From NCBI RefSeq assembly GCF_012272825.1, contig NZ_JAAWWS010000131.1:124001-188000 (forward strand): 64,000 nt of DNA, read 5' to 3'. The notes below the pieces were generated by a model. That model was not told the DNA's origin and did no database searches. It saw only the letters and a list, made by a program, of their open reading frames with translations. Source of the DNA: Wenzhouxiangella sp. XN79A (GTDB lineage Bacteria; Pseudomonadota; Gammaproteobacteria; Xanthomonadales; Wenzhouxiangellaceae). Made by a program: the position numbers and the translations under genes. This document shows, piece after piece, positions 28,636 through 36,551 of the stretch (its first letter is position 1; every line of letters starts with the position of its first letter).

Positions 28636-29427
28636 TCATCCGGTGTCGGCCTTGACGCGCTGGTAGACCGCTTCCTGCTCGTCGAGGGTCCGCTCGGCGA
28701 GCGGGCGCCCCTCGGCCTCGGCGGCGGCTTCCATCGCGCGGAAGCGACGCTCGAACTTGTGGTTGGTCCGGCGCAGCGCGGCGTCGGGGTCGAGGTCGAG
28801 CTTGCGGGCCAGGTTGGCCACCGCGAACAGCACGTCGCCGAGCTCGTCCTCGAGCCGGTCGCGGTCGGCCGGGTCGAGCTCGGCCTCCAGTTCGTCGAGC
28901 TCCTCGCGGATCTTGGCGAGCACCGGCTCGATGTCCGGCCAGTCGAAGCCGACCCGGCCGGCGCGCTTCTGCAGCTTGACGGCCCGGCGCAGCGGCGGCA
29001 GGCCGCCGGACACGCCGTCGAGCGCGCTCTGCGCGCCGCCCGCGGCCCGCTCCTGCTCCTTGATCGCTTCCCAGTTCGCGGTCTGCTCGTCGGCATCCAT
29101 GCGTGGCGCATCGCCGAACACGTGCGGGTGTCGGCGGATCAACTTGTCGGCGATGCCGTTGGCCACCTCGGCGAACCCGAAGGCGCCGGCCTCGCGACCC
29201 AGCCGGGCATGGAACACCACCTGGAACAGCAGGTCACCGAGCTCGTCACGGACGTGCTCGAGATCGCCGCTCTCGATCGCATCGGCGACTTCGTGGGCTT
29301 CCTCGATGGTGTACGGCGCGATGCTCCGGAAATCCTGCTCGAGGTCCCAGGGGCAGCCCGACACCGGATCACGCAGCCGATCCATGACCTCCAGGATCCG
29401 GTCGAGGGCCTTGTGGTTCTCGCTCAT
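28636..29427 (-). CDS. mazG: Nucleoside triphosphate pyrophosphohydrolase MazG
   Basis: MazG hydrolyses all (d)NTPs to monophosphates and cleans the nucleotide pool. The 263 residues equal the E. coli length. It has two MazG domains: the first contains the metal-binding pattern TIEEAHEVADAIE and RDELGDLLFQVVFHARLG, the second GRVGFDWPDIEPVLAKI with DRLEDELGDVLFAVANLAR. The start at 29427 overlaps the stop of the histidine kinase gene by four bases (ATGA), a tight coupling that places mazG at the end of the PepSY-phoP-phoQ-like operon. Confidence 0.95.
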   Translation of the reverse strand: MSENHKALDRILEVMDRLRDPVSGCPWDLEQDFRSIAPYTIEEAHEVADAIESGDLEHVRDELGDLLFQVVFHARLGREAGAFGFAEVANGIADKLIRRHPHVFGDAPRMDADEQTANWEAIKEQERAAGGAQSALDGVSGGLPPLRRAVKLQKRAGRVGFDWPDIEPVLAKIREELDELEAELDPADRDRLEDELGDVLFAVANLARKLDLDPDAALRRTNHKFERRFRAMEAAAEAEGRPLAERTLDEQEAVYQRVKADTG

Positions 29428-30884
29428 TCGGCGTCCTTGGCTCGGGCTTCGGGGGGCAGGTCCAGCGTCACGCGCAGACCGCCCAGCGGGGAGCGACCGG
29501 CGGTCACCCGGCCATCATACCCGGACACGATCCGTTCGACGATGGCCAGCCCCAGACCCTGCCCTTCGACCCGCTGCCGGTCGCGCTGGTCGCCGCGGAC
29601 GCCGCGCTGGAGCATCCGCTCGAACTCCTCGGCGTCCATGCCCGGTCCGTCGTCGTCGACATCGATCTGCAGACCGCGTCGACGCAGGCTGGCGGTGCCC
29701 TGGCGCGCCTGGACCCGGACCCGGGCCGCGCCGTACTTGGCGGCGTTCTCGGCCAGATTGCCGACCAGCTCCAGCAGGTCGCGCTCCTCGACGTTGGCGG
29801 CCAGGCCCTCGGCCACGTCGAGCTCGAACTCGACGTCGTGGTAGAGCTTGCCGAGCGTACGGATGGCGCGATCCAGCACTGGCCGCACGCCGACCAGGGC
29901 GCGCATCGTGCGACGTCCCGAGCGCAGTGCGCGATCGAGCTCGGCACGGACCCGCAGGCGCATCTGTTCGACCGTGTCGCGCAGCGATTCCAGATCGACG
30001 TCGTCGTCGTCGAGCTGGGTCCCGATGACCGCCAGCGGTGTCTTCAGGGAATGGGCCAGGTCGCCCAGCGCGCGTCGGTACTGCTCGACGTTCGTGCGTT
30101 CGGTCGCGAGCAGCGCGTTGAGATTGGCGGTCAGCGGTTCGAGCTCCCGTGGATAGCGCCCGCGCAGCCGGTCGGCCCGGCCGGCCTCGACGTCACCGAC
30201 TTCGCCGGCCACCCGCCGCAGCACCAGCAGGGGCTGGACCAGCAGTGCGATCAGGGCCACCAGCAGAATCGCACCGGCCAGCGCCAGCCAGCGCCACAGC
30301 ACGCTGCCGAACCGCGCCAGGGTCTCGTCCATCCGGTTGCGGTCCTCGGCCGACCAGACCACCAGGTCGACGATCCGGCCGTCGGGCAGTTCCCAGCCCA
30401 GCCCGATCTGGCCGCGATGGTATCGGTCCTCACCGGCGGCCAGGAAGCGGCTCTGGCCGCGTCCGATCGAAGCCGCCGGCGGCTGCAGGTCCACGCCCAG
30501 CGTCGACGGCGAGCGCCAGCGCTGGAACGAGTCCGGCGCACCGGTCGGCGAGGACAGCCGCAGCCCGGCGTACAGCCCCGAGGCCGGTCGGGCAAGCAGT
30601 GAATCACCGAGGTTGCTCGGCGCGACCAGGCGCCCGTCGGATGTGACATCCATGCCGGCCAGGACCTGGAAGGCTGCGCCCTCCAGGCGTTCCTGCAAGG
30701 CCAGTTCGGCCGCGCTGCGATACGCCTGCTGGACAGCCAGCCCGATCAGGCCGAGCGCGACCAGCAGAACGACCAGCGCCGAAACGGAAAGACGCAGCAG
30801 CAGTGACGGAGCCCGGCGCGGCGATTCGTCCTCGGGGCCGGGCGGCCGCGCGGCGACCGTTGTGTTCGGAGCGGACCCGGACAT
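29424..30884 (-). CDS. PhoQ-like sensor histidine kinase
   Basis: This membrane sensor kinase has 486 residues, the same length as E. coli PhoQ. Membrane helices lie at about 30-52 and 195-218 with a periplasmic sensor region between them, then a HAMP linker. The H-box LGDLAHSLKTPLAVIG (H278) is close to PhoQ. The N-box is ELVGNLAENAAKYGAARV, with DDDGPGM and GQGLGLAIVERIVSGYDG. The periplasmic region lacks a run of acidic residues like the Mg2+/peptide-sensing patch of enteric PhoQ, so the signal may differ. The start at 30884 avoids overlap with the response regulator stop; an upstream start at 30929 is possible. Confidence 0.82.
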   Translation of the reverse strand: MSGSAPNTTVAARPPGPEDESPRRAPSLLLRLSVSALVVLLVALGLIGLAVQQAYRSAAELALQERLEGAAFQVLAGMDVTSDGRLVAPSNLGDSLLARPASGLYAGLRLSSPTGAPDSFQRWRSPSTLGVDLQPPAASIGRGQSRFLAAGEDRYHRGQIGLGWELPDGRIVDLVVWSAEDRNRMDETLARFGSVLWRWLALAGAILLVALIALLVQPLLVLRRVAGEVGDVEAGRADRLRGRYPRELEPLTANLNALLATERTNVEQYRRALGDLAHSLKTPLAVIGTQLDDDDVDLESLRDTVEQMRLRVRAELDRALRSGRRTMRALVGVRPVLDRAIRTLGKLYHDVEFELDVAEGLAANVEERDLLELVGNLAENAAKYGAARVRVQARQGTASLRRRGLQIDVDDDGPGMDAEEFERMLQRGVRGDQRDRQRVEGQGLGLAIVERIVSGYDGRVTAGRSPLGGLRVTLDLPPEARAKDAE

Positions 30885-30894
30885 CGAGGCGGGT

Positions 30895-31569
30895 TCAGGC
30901 GTCCGGACTGAACCGGTAGCCCCGGCCACGAAGCGTCTGGATCGGCTTCCAGTCGCCGTCCGGATCGAGCTTGCGGCGCAGCCGTCCGAGAATCACTTCG
31001 ATCACGTTCGAATCCGGATCGGCATCGTCTTCGTAGAGGTGCTCGTTGAGCTGGAGCTTCGACAGGACCTGGTCGGGGTGGAGCACGAAATAGGCCAGCA
31101 GCTTGTATTCGAACTGGGTCAGGTCCAGCGGCTCTCCGTTCAATGTCACCTTCTGCGAATTCAACTGGACCTTGAGCGGGCCGAACACCACGTCGGAACT
31201 GGCGTGGCCGCCGGCCCGACGCAACAGCGCGTTGACCCGGGCCAGCAGTTCTTCGGTCCGGAACGGCTTGGTCAGGTAGTCGTCGGCGCCGTTCTCCAGC
31301 GCCTCGACCTTGTCTTCCCAGTGATCGCGGGCGGTCAGGATGAGCACCGGATACCGCTTGTCGGCGCGCCTGAGTTCCTTGACCACGTCCAGGCCGGACT
31401 TGCCCGGCAGGCCGAGGTCGACGATCGCCAGGTCGATCGGGTATTCCTGGGCCATGTAGGCCCCTTCGATGCCTTCGCCGCAGGCATCGACGACGAACCC
31501 TTCCCGCTTCAGTCGTTCGCTCAGCGTTTCACGCAGCGCCGTCTCGTCCTCCAGCAGCAGAACCCTCAT
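30895..31569 (-). CDS. PhoP-like response regulator (OmpR family)
   Basis: The 224-residue protein has a receiver domain (1-118) and an OmpR-type winged-helix DNA-binding domain (about 125-224). The phosphoacceptor is D51 in LAIVDLGLPGKSG; E7-D8 form the acidic pocket and Lys lies in DDYLTKPFRTEELLAR. The C-terminal domain includes LTQFEYKLLAYFVLHPDQVLS and IEVILGRLRRKLD, ending IQTLRGRGYRFS, close to PhoP. The start overlaps the PepSY gene stop (ATGA) and the kinase gene follows after 10 bases, so it is the middle gene of one operon. Confidence 0.9.
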   Translation of the reverse strand: MRVLLLEDETALRETLSERLKREGFVVDACGEGIEGAYMAQEYPIDLAIVDLGLPGKSGLDVVKELRRADKRYPVLILTARDHWEDKVEALENGADDYLTKPFRTEELLARVNALLRRAGGHASSDVVFGPLKVQLNSQKVTLNGEPLDLTQFEYKLLAYFVLHPDQVLSKLQLNEHLYEDDADPDSNVIEVILGRLRRKLDPDGDWKPIQTLRGRGYRFSPDA

Positions 31570-31838
31570 CGGTCTCGTCTCCGATCGTCGGCGGGAACCC
31601 GGATCGTCTTGACCACACCGTCGCGGGTCATGATCCGGATCTCGTAGAACCGCCGGCCGTTGCGCTCGACCTCGCGCGCCGAGACCACGCGGGCATCGTT
31701 CTGTCGCGCAACGCGTTCGGCGACCTCGCGCAGCGAGTCGGCGCGGACTTCGCCGCCCGGCAGCGCGGCGGCGCCGAACAGCAGGGTCGTCGCCATCAGC
31801 CCGGCGGCCAGGATCTGCTTGAAGGAGGTCTTGATCAT
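31566..31838 (-). CDS. Small exported PepSY-like protein
   Basis: The 90-residue protein has a signal peptide (1 to about 33, ending GGEVRADS) and a single PepSY-like domain with the pattern REVERNGRRFYEIRIMTRDG followed by VKTIRVPAD. PepSY domains are extracytoplasmic and are thought to inhibit proteases or modulate sensor kinases. Its position as the first gene of a PepSY-phoP-phoQ operon, with the start of phoP overlapping its stop, suggests it tunes the sensor, but that is inference. The operon promoter should lie between 31839 and the terminator at 31911-31938. Confidence 0.75.
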   Translation of the reverse strand: MIKTSFKQILAAGLMATTLLFGAAALPGGEVRADSLREVAERVARQNDARVVSAREVERNGRRFYEIRIMTRDGVVKTIRVPADDRRRDR

Positions 31839-31910
31839 GCCGCCATTCTAGACCCGCGGTCTGAATCCGTGCTGAACCACGCCTGCGCATCGGGTCGTGA
31901 CCAACCAACG

Positions 31911-31938
31911 AAAAAGGCCGCCCCGGGGGCGGCCTTTT
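31911..31938 (-). terminator. Intrinsic terminator after the cohesin/IPTL gene
   Basis: The plus strand reads AAAAAGGCCGCC, a short GC loop, then GGCGGCCTTTT. On the minus strand this is a 7-bp GC stem followed by a T-run, 34 bases downstream of the stop at 31972. The A-run on the other side would also let it work for plus-strand transcription. It closes the dockerin-cohesin operon and insulates it from the PepSY-phoP operon. Confidence 0.8.
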
Positions 31939-31971
31939 CCGAACCTCGGCGTCAGACGCCGAGCGTAGTGC

Positions 31972-33942
31972 TTACGCCATCATGCGACGGCCGGCCAACC
32001 CGCCCAGGGCGAGCAGGACCAGTGCCATCAGCAGAAGGCCCCAGCGGTTCATGGTCGGAATGACCAACGGCTGGCCCTGACAGGTGACGAAGAAGTTCGC
32101 TGCAGCGACGTCGGCACCGACGATTTCGCAGGCCACCTCGGCCTGGAACAGGCCCGGTGCGGTCGGCGTGCACTGGAACGAAGCCGCTTCCGAAGCACCG
32201 GCCCCGACCGTGAAGCTGATCGGGTCGGGCGTGAAGGTGAACACGCCATCCGGATCGGTCACGGAGCAGGACACGTCGTAGCTGTCGACGGCACCGGCGT
32301 TCGAGAACACCAGGTCACCGGCCGGCGTGGTCGTGGCCGGCGGAACCACGCCCAGGTTCAGCGTACCGCCGTCGGCCGGGCTCGAGCCGAACACGGCGTC
32401 GGTCTGGCCGGAGCAGGTCAGCGGGTAGGTCACCGGAGCAGCCGTGTCGTTGTTGGTCACTTCCAGCGTGGCCGTCAGCGCACCGGCAGCGGCCGGCGGC
32501 GTGCAGGTCACTTCGATGTCGGCACCGCCGTCCGGCGAACCCACGACCGGGTACGGACCGGTGTTGTTGATCGTCACGGCAAACGCCCCGGCATCCGGGC
32601 CGGTGATGTTGGCCGGGCCGATGGTCAGCTCCGACGCCGTGCCGGAACCGTTACCGGTGTTGTAGACGTCGATCGCGATCGGCGGCGAGGTCACACCGTT
32701 GGTCACCGTGCCGAATGCCAGCGTAGCGCCGACGGCCGGATCGGAGGTGTAGGTCGGGAACTCGTCGAGGATTTCGCAGGTCACGGTAACGCTATCGGTG
32801 TCGGCATTGCCGCCATTCGCGTCCGTGGAGTCGAAATCGATCGTGGCCGAGAAGTTGCCCGCGGTAGTGCGGTCGCAGGACACGGTGTAGACCTGGTTGC
32901 CACCGGTGGCAATGGTCGTCGTGCCCGCCGGGGTCACGGTGAACGTGCCCGGGTTCGCGCCGCCGAGGGTCGGAGTCACGTCTGCAGGCGCACTGAAGGC
33001 GTCACCGGCGTTCGACACGGTCACGGTGTCGCTCGGGTCGGCCGCATCGGTGGTCAGACCGTTCAGCGTGATGCTTGCCGTCGAGGTCGTAACGTCCGGG
33101 GTCAGGCCGGAGCAGCTGACCTGATACAGCGGTGCCGGTTCGTTGATCGAGTTGTTGGTCACCTCGACCGCAGCAATTCGCGCTCCTCGCGCAGTCGGCG
33201 TACAGGTCAGATCGACCGGCACATCCGCACCACCGTCGGCGATCGTGAACGGCGCCGTAACGACCGTGAAATCACCGGGGTTTGCGCCGGTCAGCGGGAA
33301 CGCGGTGACTTCGAGGGTCTGATCCCCGATTTCGGAGACCGTGATGTCGGCCGCGGAGGCATCGGCAAGTTCACCGACCAGTGCCGCGCCGATGTTGATC
33401 GCCGGACCGCCCGAGGACGGCGTCGATGCATAGCCGGCATTGCCGGTGATCGAACCGGTGATCTGGCCGTCGGAACCGGTGATCGCAACAGGGGCGCCAG
33501 TCAGATCCGAACCAGACGCATTGGTGAACGTCAGGGTGTGCGTTCCAGGCTGGTTGATCTGGAACTCCCACTGGCCGATCGGTGCAATGTTGAACGGCGT
33601 GATTTCGTCGATCGGAAACGCCAGATCGGCAATGAGGGAGCGAATGATTCCGCTCCCCGCGCCACCCGGCTCGGTGCACGTTGCCGAGTGCGTGGCCGGG
33701 ATGTTGTTTCCGCAGGTGCTCACGTCGACCGGCGTCAGCGCGGCGGGGTCGTAAGTGATGTCGAACTGGTAGCCGGCAACGTCGTCGGCGTCCAGCGCGG
33801 AATAGTCGTAGGTCACGACCACGTTACCGCCAACGGCGCCGGAAGCGCTGCCAACGGTGATGCTGATGTCGGCAAAAGCCGATGCCGAGGCCAGCAGGGC
33901 GGCCCCGGCAATGCTTGCCGGAAGAAGTTTCTTGTACAACAT
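31972..33942 (-). CDS. Cohesin-like surface protein with four Ig-like repeats and IPTL-CTERM membrane tail
   Basis: The 656-residue protein has a signal peptide (1-24, ending ASAFADI). Residues about 26-163 look like a cohesin domain: GAVGGNVVVTYDY, then AGYQFDITYDPAALTPVDVS, GQWEFQINQPGTHTLTF and a closing GSDGQITG strand. Four repeats of about 100 residues follow, each ending near VTCTP...C, similar to ASH-type beta-sandwiches. The last 30 residues are a sorting tail: VIPTMNRWG, a hydrophobic helix, and GRRMMA. In IPTL-CTERM proteins this tail is thought to direct membrane anchoring. The start at 33942 has AGGAG about 12 bases upstream. It is the last gene of the operon, 37 bases after the small cohesin-like gene. 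Binding to a dockerin is inferred, not shown. Confidence 0.7.
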   Translation of the reverse strand: MLYKKLLPASIAGAALLASASAFADISITVGSASGAVGGNVVVTYDYSALDADDVAGYQFDITYDPAALTPVDVSTCGNNIPATHSATCTEPGGAGSGIIRSLIADLAFPIDEITPFNIAPIGQWEFQINQPGTHTLTFTNASGSDLTGAPVAITGSDGQITGSITGNAGYASTPSSGGPAINIGAALVGELADASAADITVSEIGDQTLEVTAFPLTGANPGDFTVVTAPFTIADGGADVPVDLTCTPTARGARIAAVEVTNNSINEPAPLYQVSCSGLTPDVTTSTASITLNGLTTDAADPSDTVTVSNAGDAFSAPADVTPTLGGANPGTFTVTPAGTTTIATGGNQVYTVSCDRTTAGNFSATIDFDSTDANGGNADTDSVTVTCEILDEFPTYTSDPAVGATLAFGTVTNGVTSPPIAIDVYNTGNGSGTASELTIGPANITGPDAGAFAVTINNTGPYPVVGSPDGGADIEVTCTPPAAAGALTATLEVTNNDTAAPVTYPLTCSGQTDAVFGSSPADGGTLNLGVVPPATTTPAGDLVFSNAGAVDSYDVSCSVTDPDGVFTFTPDPISFTVGAGASEAASFQCTPTAPGLFQAEVACEIVGADVAAANFFVTCQGQPLVIPTMNRWGLLLMALVLLALGGLAGRRMMA

Positions 33943-33979
33943 GGGTAGTCTCACTCCTGGATTGAGATCGGTGTTCTAG

Positions 33980-34450
33980 TTATTTCAGGTGGTCCGGCGT
34001 GATGTCCACACCCTGTGCGTCGGCAAGGACGACACCGGCCAACTGCGCGGCAGGTGCTGCATCGGCCGAAGCCTGGCGCAGTTCCATGCGCTTGGACTGG
34101 TCGCGCGACGGTGCCGTGATGGTCACCAGCGTACCGTCCGGAAGCGGCGCGTTCTCCATCGAGAACACGATCACGCGGAGGTTGCCCTCATCGTTGATCG
34201 TGCAGTTCGCGATGTGGCTTTCCGCAACGCTGGTCCCGCACTGGAACTGGCCTTCTGCCACCTTGATCCCCTTGACGTCGAACTGCAGGCCAACGACCTG
34301 ACCGTCCGAAACGTATTCCACTGTGTACCCGTTACCGCTGGGCTGAACCCACAGGTCATTTCCTGAAGCATTTCCCTTGTCGGCATGAGCCGCGCCGGCC
34401 GACAGCGCCACCACAGCGGCTGCAGCCAGGATTCGATGATTGATGCGCAT
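33980..34450 (-). CDS. Small exported cohesin-like protein
   Basis: The 156-residue protein has a signal peptide (1-23, ending SAGAAHADK). The remainder resembles a minimal cohesin-type beta-sandwich. GQVVGLQFDVKGIKV matches the second strand pair, NLRVIVFSMENAPLPDGTLV matches the cohesin core where a strand with an exposed loop precedes DG-x-L, and C71 and C83 could form a disulfide. It has no anchor. The start at 34450 has a strong AAAGGAGA site about eight bases upstream. It lies between the dockerin gene and the anchored cohesin-like gene on the same strand with gaps of 34 and 37 bases. The cohesin assignment is by pattern only and needs a profile search. Confidence 0.55.
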   Translation of the reverse strand: MRINHRILAAAAVVALSAGAAHADKGNASGNDLWVQPSGNGYTVEYVSDGQVVGLQFDVKGIKVAEGQFQCGTSVAESHIANCTINDEGNLRVIVFSMENAPLPDGTLVTITAPSRDQSKRMELRQASADAAPAAQLAGVVLADAQGVDITPDHLK

Positions 34451-34484
34451 GATTCGGATCTCCTTTAAGGAATGGTGGCGAACT

Positions 34485-35318
34485 TTACTGGGTGACCTGG
34501 CAAGCGCCAGTCGTACCCGCCAGCGTGACGATCTGGATCACGTCCTGGACGTTGATCTGCCCGTCCTGACTGCAATCCGGCGTGCCATTCGCCAGTGCAC
34601 CGCCACCTGCTTCGGTAACGATCTGGATCACGTCCTGAACGTTCACGATTCCATCCGCATCGCCATTGACGTTGCAGTTGCAGAGACGACCGACCGCGGT
34701 GCTGCGACGCGACTCGTAGGCGTCGAAATACGTTGTGCCGGTATGCGTGTTCAGGTTGCCGAGCCGAACCGACTGCAGCTGCGTGCCGGCGTTGCTGAGC
34801 GTGGTGTTCTCGGACGCGGTTGCGCCGTTGACCGAAAGCGAGATAACGCCAGAACCGGCGCCCTGCGCCCAGTCGATCTCGATCGAGTTCCAGGCATTGC
34901 TGGTGCCGGCCTGGCTCACGGACTGCCCCGTAGAGGTGTCGGTCAGGGTGACGTTACCGGAGGCGTCGACCGTGACGTTGAACCGCTCGCTGCCGCCAGC
35001 GGTATCGCCGTAGCCTGCGTAGATTTCGGCCGTGTCGCTGTTGCCGGCCCAGAAGTAGGTCCGCGCGACGATGCGATCGATGCCGCCCGGGTTGTTGTCC
35101 TGGACGTACCCGGCGCCGGTAACCTCCATGCCGCACAGCCCGGCGTAGCGAGCGATGCTGTCGGTCAGCGGATCACCCGCAGCCACAGCACCGCTGTTGC
35201 TGCTCCAGTTATCGAGCGTGCAAGCCATCGCGGCCTGGCCGGCGAATGCTGCGCCCAGCAGCAGAGCGCCCGCGGCGGCCGTGCGTCCGAGGATGGATTT
35301 CGAATTCGTGTTTCTCAT
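34485..35318 (-). CDS. Exported dockerin-bearing protein with LamG-like N-terminal domain
   Basis: The 277-residue protein has a signal peptide (1 to about 32, ending AGQAAMAC). Residues about 33-205 look like a concanavalin/LamG-type beta-sandwich, ending TTYFDAYESRR. Residues 213-266 form a type I-like dockerin with two calcium loops: N218-D229 (NGDADGIVNVQD) and D248-D259 (DCSQDGQINVQD). Each is followed by a near-identical helix VIQIVTxAG. Both loops keep acidic or Asn residues at positions 1, 5, 9 and 12; position 3 is Asp in the first and Ser in the second. The start at 35318 has AGGAG ten bases upstream. It is the first gene of the operon with two cohesin-like genes. Pairing with those partners is inferred from neighbourhood. 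Confidence 0.8.
   Translation of the reverse strand: MRNTNSKSILGRTAAAGALLLGAAFAGQAAMACTLDNWSSNSGAVAAGDPLTDSIARYAGLCGMEVTGAGYVQDNNPGGIDRIVARTYFWAGNSDTAEIYAGYGDTAGGSERFNVTVDASGNVTLTDTSTGQSVSQAGTSNAWNSIEIDWAQGAGSGVISLSVNGATASENTTLSNAGTQLQSVRLGNLNTHTGTTYFDAYESRRSTAVGRLCNCNVNGDADGIVNVQDVIQIVTEAGGGALANGTPDCSQDGQINVQDVIQIVTLAGTTGACQVTQ
34528..34643 (-). repeat. Two 26-bp direct repeats coding the dockerin helices
   Basis: ACGATCTGGATCACGTCCTG followed by GACGTT at 34528-34553 recurs at 34618-34643 with a single base difference, a 90-base period. The repeats encode the two helix segments VQDVIQIV of the dockerin. Near identity at the DNA level points to a recent duplication or to correction between the halves. 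Confidence 0.85.
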
Positions 35319-35630
35319 GAGAACCAACTCCTGAATGTCATCGATTTCAATATGTTGCAACAACGGTAAGATTGCGTTCAGCGGGTCGCACCTTGGGCCC
35401 TCGGTATCTTGCACACTCCCCGCCGGGGTCTGTTTCCAGACCGCCAAGCGCGATAGTAGCAGCATTCCTGCCGGGTTTCCAATCCCCGATCGGAGCCAGA
35501 ACCCGCCCGGAATTCGTGACTCCCGTCACGATCCCGCACCCCGGACGCGCCCGTCGTGCAGATTCGCGACTGCGCCTTCCATTCTTATAAACGCGTTCCG
35601 TGACGAAATCACGTCAAGATTCAGCACGAT
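35319..35630 (-). promoter_or_regulatory. Leader and likely promoter of the dockerin-cohesin operon
   Basis: This 312-base gap has no gene. On the minus strand a possible sigma70 promoter is TTGGAA (35477-35482) and TACTAT (35453-35458), 18 bases apart. Downstream, a hairpin GGTCTG-GAAA-CAGACC at 35427-35442 lies in what would be a leader of about 130 bases. I checked it against the c-di-GMP (GEMM) riboswitch core and it does not match. The ribosome binding site AGGAG is at the end of the leader. Confidence 0.4.
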
Positions 35631-36551
35631 TCAGAAGATTTCGGCGATGCAGCAGCGCAGCGACCCCCCGGCCTTCTCGACCTCGTCGAGCTCGACGGCG
35701 TGAATCCGGAAGCCCCAGCCCTCGAGCTGCTGGCGCTTTTCGGGCGCCAGTGCACGCCAGGCGGTCGCGCTGAAGAACAGGTCGTCGAGGGTCACCGCCA
35801 GGCAATTGCCGGCGAAGGCCTGCTTCTCCTCCCGGGTGATTTCCAGCACGCGGCCCGGAAAGGCCTCGGCGATCGCGGCGGGTACGGCCGGATCGACGAA
35901 GGCGTCGGGGCAGATCACCAGCGCCCTGGAGGCCAGCACCGACATGACCACGTTGGTGTGGTACTCCTCCGGCTTGAGGTCGAAGCGGAAGGTCAGGGCC
36001 AGCTCGAACGCATCGTGCATCGCCCGGCAGCCCGCCTCGTCGACCCGACCGGTCATCCCGCAGAATCCCAACCGCCGCGCCCGGTCGATGACCAGCGCAC
36101 CGGTCAGCTCGGCCACGCAGGCCGGGCCGGCGGCGAGGTCGATGGTCTGGTATTCCATCAGGTCGGAAAAGAACGCGCGGATGTCCGGCCGCTCGGCCTC
36201 GCGCTGGCGCTCCGGGTGGCGCATGGCGCCGACGATGAAGCGCCCCGGAATCGTCGCGAACACGTTGTTCGGGAACAGGTCGTCGGGATTGGCCTCGCGG
36301 CCCGGGAACCGGATCACAGGAATGCCGCAGCCGGCGATGGCATCGGTCAGACGCCGGTGCTGCTCGAGGGCCAGCGACGGGTTCACGCCGACGGTCAGGT
36401 CCATGTAGCGGTTGTCGCGGGCGGCCTGGCGGGACAGACGGAACTGGTCCGGTTCGACCAGGAACACCGCCCGCGGCACGGCGGGTGAATCGTCGGTGAG
36501 CCAGTCCTGTCGGATCTGGTCGAGAAAGTCTTCGGGACGGGTAACGATCAT
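35631..36551 (-). CDS. Amidinotransferase/arginine-deiminase-fold hydrolase (CtlX-like)
   Basis: The 306-residue protein has the pentein fold shared by arginine deiminase, dimethylarginine hydrolase and amidinotransferases. It matches the branch annotated as citrulline utilisation hydrolase CtlX. Key residues are Asp and Asn in NPDDLFPNNVFA, His in EEYHTNVVMSVLASRALVI, and the nucleophile Cys near the end in GGSLRCC. The substrate of this branch is not well settled; guanidino or ureido amino acids are likely. The start at 36551 (MIVTRPEDF) is preferred. It lies 88 bases downstream of tadA on the same strand. Confidence 0.72.
   Translation of the reverse strand: MIVTRPEDFLDQIRQDWLTDDSPAVPRAVFLVEPDQFRLSRQAARDNRYMDLTVGVNPSLALEQHRRLTDAIAGCGIPVIRFPGREANPDDLFPNNVFATIPGRFIVGAMRHPERQREAERPDIRAFFSDLMEYQTIDLAAGPACVAELTGALVIDRARRLGFCGMTGRVDEAGCRAMHDAFELALTFRFDLKPEEYHTNVVMSVLASRALVICPDAFVDPAVPAAIAEAFPGRVLEITREEKQAFAGNCLAVTLDDLFFSATAWRALAPEKRQQLEGWGFRIHAVELDEVEKAGGSLRCCIAEIF

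Follow-up and report, generated by a model that had tools for sequence, protein, structure and literature searches.

A three-gene cohesin-dockerin operon in Wenzhouxiangella sp. XN79A: a probable non-cellulosomal clasp associated with exosortase H

This analysis concerned a compact operon in a 64,000-nucleotide stretch of DNA, here called the window, from the gammaproteobacterium Wenzhouxiangella sp. XN79A (assembly GCF_012272825.1, contig NZ_JAAWWS010000131.1, positions 124,001 to 188,000 of the forward strand). Three consecutive open reading frames (ORFs) on the minus strand, 35318-31972, encode a protein with a C-terminal dockerin (DOC), a small free cohesin (SML) and a large cohesin protein with a sorting tail (COH). 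A sequence-only reading had described three genes on one strand with gaps of 34 and 37 bases, and both the order and the gaps (DOC-SML 34 bp, SML-COH 37 bp) were confirmed. The host genome is 3.75 Mb in size, with the operon on contig C14; genomes, contigs, loci, genera and families are referred to below by working numbers (G, C, L, g and f). The features of the locus are:

34485..35318, minus strand: DOC, 277 aa, start ATG at 35318, stop at 34485
34488..34697, minus strand: dockerin module of DOC, two 12-residue F-hand loops, each ending NVQD, then VIQIV
33980..34450, minus strand: SML, 156 aa, single cohesin with a signal-peptide-like start
31972..33942, minus strand: COH, 656 aa, start ATG at 33942, stop at 31972
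31975..32061, minus strand: IPTL-CTERM exosortase H sorting tail of COH, residues 628-656, matching TIGR04174
31909..31941, minus strand: intrinsic terminator-like hairpin 3' of COH, -27.7 kcal/mol

The start of DOC was taken as the ATG at 35318, the ORF list having placed it at an in-frame ATG further upstream, at 35465. As judged by eye, an AGGAG ribosome-site-like stretch precedes each of the three starts, and DOC, SML and COH alike have a signal-peptide-like N-terminus. The intrinsic terminator proposed earlier corresponds to the strong hairpin at 31941-31909 (z -3.55, equalled in 1 of 200 shuffles), which is absent from the list of a simple terminator scan. The shared promoter proposed with it was not confirmed, as the promoter scan gave no sigma-70-like site in 31000-36500.

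COH consists of an N-terminal cohesin, followed by choice-of-anchor-D repeats (choice_anch_D, 90.9 bits, cut-off 45) and the IPTL-CTERM tail. Its recognition as a cohesin holds both in Pfam, where the whole protein scored 34.2 bits and its N-terminal 200 aa 40.2 bits against PF00963 (cut-off 24.1), and in comparison with the Protein Data Bank (PDB), where a profile built from 35 COH N-termini retrieved solved cohesins at 1.1e-12; cohesin identity was supported for 17 of these 35 N-termini. The C-terminus had been called a membrane tail, and while the IPTL tail itself stands, its nature is better given as an exosortase H (IPTL-CTERM) sorting signal. TIGR04174 matched residues 628-653 at 20.8 bits (cut-off 20.5) and the gene for exosortase H (XrtH) lies elsewhere in the same genome (C28:189504-189968, E 5.9e-59), so that both marks of IPTL-CTERM/XrtH cargo, the tail on COH and the enzyme in the genome, are present. 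At one related locus, two tandem large cohesin (COH) genes adjoin one DOC and one SML (L054:5988-10121, minus strand).

No family in Pfam or NCBIfam matched SML, and the proposal that it is a cohesin nevertheless stands, by fold and by profile. In structural comparison of its AlphaFold model (predicted local distance difference test, pLDDT, 82), ranks 1-42 were all cohesins, with Z-scores of 10.8 to 8.0, the best being aligned over 111 residues with a root-mean-square deviation (rmsd) of 2.6; the staphylococcal adhesin UafA and the copper protein YcnI likewise align, at Z 7.8-8.0. A profile of 24 SML-type proteins had as its four best PDB matches the chains of the NagJ cohesin module (E 0.0014-0.0059). 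The SML and COH profiles aligned with each other in hhalign at E 2.4e-14, compared with 0.11-0.86 for eight column-shuffled controls, and the two cohesins are, on sequence comparison, homologous members of one subfamily. A chance likeness of SML to cohesins was ruled out by the column-shuffled profiles, the leave-one-family-out search described below, and the fold. Both cohesins carry two cysteines separated by eleven intervening residues (C71/C83 in SML, C77/C89 in COH), as they do at L049, L053, L054 and L055; more distant members have a different spacing.

DOC comprises a jelly roll of the ConA/polysaccharide-lyase-like kind (about residues 33-205) and the C-terminal dockerin (about 208-270). 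The dockerin had been described as clear from the sequence, and this is true of its identity but not of its recognition by domain libraries in the operon copy. Dockerin_1 was matched at E <= 0.1 by 14 of 24 aligned members of the DOC family (best 8.4e-11), the family profile retrieved solved dockerins from the PDB at 1.3e-5, and in the operon DOC (P0003) both F-hand loops have 4/4 of the scored calcium-ligand positions. Close relatives of DOC were found at seven named loci, of which six belong to metagenome-assembled genomes (two of Lysobacterales, one of Wenzhouxiangellaceae and three labelled no further than Gammaproteobacteria) and one to an uncultured proteobacterium.

The jelly roll raises the question of whether DOC is an enzyme. 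Its best structural match was an endo-beta-1,4-glucuronan lyase (Z 17.7, rmsd 2.5, 180 residues), followed by X122 domains (15.6-15.4) and Cip1 (Z 15.2), and weak Pfam Polysacc_lyase-like matches occurred in 2 of 24 DOC family members, as would be expected if the domain were a polysaccharide lyase of the PL20/Cip1 kind and the operon displayed a single enzyme, a mini-cellulosome acting on uronic-acid polymers. The fold is a common one, however, since lectin domains of trans-sialidases, an arabinanase domain and neurotoxin binding domains also matched at Z 14-15, and pentraxins were among the Foldseek matches. The matches to the receptor-binding domains of clostridial neurotoxins reflect this common jelly roll and give no ground for inferring a toxin. 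Enzyme display is considered unlikely.

The same gene order was sought in relatives and was found. The related set comprised 39 DOC loci, one of which (L074) had no downstream room, and a further 20 held-out loci, unused in any profile, were chosen for genus spread and are not all of the DOC matches; one of these (L153) also lacked room. A recognizable cohesin gene came next after DOC in 54 of the 57 loci with room (37/38 in the related set and 17/19 in the held-out set). In the related set the order DOC, SML-like, COH-like was present at 22/38 loci, a COH-like gene followed DOC directly at 13/38 (three of them ending at a contig edge), L065 had DOC and then SML up to the contig end, and at L075 the cohesin was part of an ORF of 1361 aa, which overlaps DOC if its listed start is taken. 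Profiles built with one family left out at a time recovered 23/24 SML and 34/35 COH, missing the SML of L087 (E 0.2) and the COH of L067, with the partner cohesin recovered at each of these loci; the other ORFs matched, among 1681, were cohesin-bearing genes adjoining DOC or in tandem with such genes. In a set of 81 genomes, 16 of 24 Pfam Cohesin matches had a DOC gene no more than about 3 kb away.

Cohesin and DOC-type dockerin were also found in single natural polypeptides, which supports their pairing. One of these (G058, contig C297, L096:1333-3021, plus strand) carries a cohesin, an IPTL-like stretch, a second hydrophobic segment, a dockerin and Ig-like repeats, and scored 32.5 bits against Pfam Cohesin (above cut-off), 1e-15 against the dockerin profile of the DOC family, and 21.7 and 13.9 bits against Dockerin_1 and IPTL-CTERM, both under cut-off. 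Another such polypeptide is encoded on contig C37 of G031. Cleavage of the C297 protein at the IPTL site would split its cohesin half from its dockerin half.

DOC profile matches were present in 80 of 398 genomes of the order (Xanthomonadales), including those to the ConA part or the dockerin only, while full-length DOC, defined as one match from profile position <=30 to >=260, occurred in 62/398 genomes, representing 28 genera and 9 families by hand count; in one of these genomes (G441) a stop codon interrupts the gene. Outside the order, a draw of 274 genomes from the class gave one dockerin-only match and a draw of 398 genomes from the phylum gave no DOC match, and DOC appears, from these sequence searches, to be confined to the order in the draws made. 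XrtH was present in 163/398 genomes of the order and in 59/62 of those with full-length DOC, the three without it (G002, G353, G365) being 77-85% complete. Among high-quality genomes, selected by rounded completeness and contamination and including 49 of the 62, full-length DOC was found in 49/114 with XrtH and in 0/229 without (p 7e-28), and by genus in 28/49 versus 0/49 (p 3e-11), both without correction for phylogeny. The association extends to family f2, where the three genomes with XrtH (G392, G507, G641) are the same three that have DOC. DOC-like jelly rolls without a dockerin were observed in G044, G055 and G064 (family f3) and in G053, G070 and G622 (f12), families in which no full-length DOC was found, and may represent either the origin or the decay of the system.

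The view of this gammaproteobacterial system as non-cellulosomal agrees with the cohesin and dockerin counts of the genome. PF00963 had two matches, in separate proteins, namely COH and, on contig C23, a cohesin-metalloprotease; SML, missed by Pfam, is the third, again a single cohesin, and no multi-cohesin scaffoldin was present among the PF00963 matches of the whole genome. The dockerin-module profile gave one match at E <= 0.01, and the only two matches of PF00404 were both under its cut-off. Across 41 genomes the module profile matched in 30, exactly once in 28 of these (the match in one of the 30, G003, is weak and to another kind of dockerin), and 53 of the 62 genomes with full-length DOC had a single DOC profile match. 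With a single such dockerin in most genomes, and with two PF00963 matches in two proteins and one dockerin match in the operon's own genome, a cellulosome was rejected. The C23 protein (G000, L088:8761-10590, minus strand) has an N-terminal cohesin, then an M12-type metalloprotease domain, with a weak likeness to Mep72, and could, by its sequence, be another partner for the single dockerin.

The dockerin itself provided a further line of evidence. Positions 10 and 11 of each repeat are described in PMC8063739 as established determinants of dockerin specificity; in the operon these are VQ and VQ, and 8/8 contact positions are identical between the repeats. Positions 10-11 were the same in both repeats of 26/40 dockerins (shuffle mean 2.3, maximum 9 in 10000), a set in which some first loops were mis-picked, and, by a count from the list, of 42/56 in the largest set, from which L074, L152, L153 and L167 are absent. 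The comparison by position and the codon test covered 30 of the 40, nine of the ten omitted dockerins being from genus g6 and many of them less symmetric, and the 25/30 identical pairs of this smaller set flatter the symmetry. Within it, 14 different residue pairs occurred among the identical 10-11 pairs. Symmetry was strong (z 6 to 11) at positions 9-11, 13, 14, 17, 18, 20 and 21 and of intermediate strength at 5, 7 and 22, and positions 1-4, 6, 8, 15 and 16 matched about as often as expected by chance. Recent duplication or gene conversion left no sign, codon identity at the symmetric residues being 124/272 compared with 130.0 expected from codon usage, and since codon agreement did not exceed expectation, the most parsimonious explanation is that the match between repeats has been kept by selection at the protein level. 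The symmetry is thus apparently maintained by selection on the protein, and repeats that match at the recognition positions while varying between species are, as far as sequences can indicate, a signature of dual binding. Relaxation of the symmetry upon loss of SML was unsupported (p 0.15). One asymmetry is fixed: position 19 of repeat 1 is an almost invariant Glu that has no counterpart in repeat 2 (0/30), and Cys is frequent in the helix of repeat 2.

Divergence of the dockerin contact residues followed that of both cohesins. The correlation with COH was r 0.65 (partial 0.61) for contact and 0.43 (0.30) for non-contact residues, and with SML 0.66 (0.58) and 0.45 (0.35), where the partial value measures co-divergence beyond that of the jelly roll of the same DOC, and where the contrast is biased upwards, as contact positions were partly picked from the symmetry table and the non-contact set holds the conserved calcium ligands. 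SML and COH distances are also intercorrelated (r 0.79, partial 0.69). These data bear on whether the proteins interact at all. If they were surface proteins that are expressed together but do not bind each other, the F-hands could be mere calcium-stabilised C-terminal caps and the symmetry a leftover of duplication, and symmetry by duplication without functional relevance is indeed one hypothesis for dockerins generally (PMC8063739). That explanation is very improbable here, given that the symmetry is focused on the cohesin-recognition positions and has been retained although synonymous sites are randomised, that dockerin and cohesins co-diverge, that the cohesin neighbourhood of DOC is constant, and that the two domains are joined in single polypeptides.

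The operon is probably a dedicated, non-cellulosomal, calcium-dependent cohesin-dockerin clasp at the cell envelope, in which DOC is held on XrtH-sorted COH. This interpretation draws on the gene order, the domain identities, their conservation, the XrtH-tied distribution, the symmetry of the recognition face and its co-divergence with the cohesins, and it predicts physical binding, a dependence on calcium, a surface location, a ligand and a role for SML. Judging by the signal-peptide-like starts, all three proteins would be exported. The tail and the co-occurrence with XrtH suggest that XrtH processes COH at the IPTL tail and that COH displays its cohesin, onto which DOC, having no anchor of its own, is predicted to dock through its dockerin in a calcium-dependent manner. 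Docking would place the ConA/lyase-fold domain, most likely a glycan-binding one, on the cell surface. The dockerin would keep two equivalent recognition faces, and SML, a free cohesin of the COH subfamily, may bind the same dockerin as a soluble partner, either escorting DOC or competing for it, a role that is put forward tentatively.

Two symmetric faces invite more elaborate schemes. Each face might take a different cohesin at the same time, giving a ternary SML-DOC-COH complex or a chain, which would fit both an operon where a single symmetric dockerin is accompanied by two cohesins from the same subfamily and the co-divergence of these cohesins with the dockerin contact residues. Such a bridge is distinctly unlikely, because known dual-binding dockerins are described in PMC8063739 as binding one cohesin in two alternative orientations, and because some loci that lack SML have kept the symmetry. 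A broader version of the exosortase H-dependent clasp, where the two faces serve both free SML and anchored COH, be it simultaneously or by hand-over, is speculative and on balance improbable. If it were true, it would give dual-binding symmetry a reason unrelated to cellulosome crowding and would be a new mode of holding proteins on the Gram-negative surface.

Several observations weigh against the proposed clasp. Pfam (PF00404) and NCBIfam do not recognize the dockerin in the operon's own DOC, and in the DOC model the dockerin region reaches a pLDDT of just ~65-78. Pfam also misses every SML scanned, 0/13 family members exceeding the PF00963 gathering score, and the structural case for SML has its limits: UafA, the first non-cohesin (Z 8.0), comes directly after rank 42, and Foldseek TM-scores against cohesins were modest, at 0.41-0.57 in the ten best rows and mostly 0.40-0.57 when normalised by query or target length. 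The IPTL score of COH exceeds its cut-off by a mere 0.3 bit, and the XrtH statistics are subject to the phylogenetic caveat given above. Two or three DOC profile matches, some split or partial, were present in 9/62 genomes (G023, G025, G027, G031, G032, G058, G073, G353 and G488). Two of the 19 held-out loci with room (L152 and L167) had no recognizable cohesin next to DOC, and a fragment at L073, SML-like by eye, failed in the profile search (E 2.1) and was left out of the 37. SML is missing from the loci seen in genus g6 and family f8, and in some of their dockerins the first calcium loop is degenerate; this loop was complete in 7/20 two-gene loci compared with 28/36 three-gene loci, a post hoc comparison clustered by genus.

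The proposed clasp has in common with the type I systems of clostridial cellulosomes the cohesin fold, a dockerin of duplicated F-hands, the recognition positions 10-11 and the internal symmetry of dual binding. It differs in that most genomes have one such dockerin, no multi-cohesin scaffoldin was seen, the system is gammaproteobacterial, and COH has an exosortase tail. The anchors of clostridial scaffoldins differ from such a tail. The closest solved sequences to SML are the NagJ modules among the glycosidase cohesins of Clostridium perfringens (PDB 2jh2, 2vo8); those are parts of glycosidases, according to the PDB titles, while here one cohesin stands alone and one is on a protein with a sorting tail. 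COH and the XrtH gene conform to the XrtH/IPTL-CTERM exosortase system (TIGR04177, TIGR04174), whose models describe a general sorting system, of which a cohesin-dockerin cargo operon is not a part. Cohesins and dockerins outside cellulose use are also known from archaea, namely the non-cellulosomal cohesin of Archaeoglobus (PDB 2xdh) and the sets of anaerobic methanotrophic (ANME) archaea, where ANME-1 and ANME-2a genomes have from tens to >100 such domains; the genes form a compact operon here, and none is described for ANME in the available part of PMC5244752. Among the literature matches listed, no title or abstract start described an operon of this kind, which is weak evidence of absence.

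With usually a single such dockerin in a genome and one or two cohesins in the operon, conserved over many genera of the order, this would be a minimal case. It may reveal the role of a cohesin-dockerin clasp outside cellulose-digesting machines, in a system where three proteins suffice for tests, and exosortase H, carried by 163 of the 398 genomes, gains a candidate cargo complex.

Variant architectures and neighbouring genes were also observed. Giant ORFs of 1978, 2088 and 1986 aa (L141, L142 and L143) contain an internal DOC jelly roll and dockerin, that of L142 having an N-terminal cohesin too. Near the DOC of L152 (G369) lies an IPTL-tailed 661-aa ORF with an N-terminus unrecognised by the cohesin profile, representing either a diverged cohesin or another partner. 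The genes after the operon, at 29424-31838 on the minus strand, encode a secreted-looking protein of 90 aa, a response regulator of the OmpR type and a histidine kinase. Several relatives have a similar regulator downstream of the operon; genus g6 has a kinase there together with a regulator of another type.

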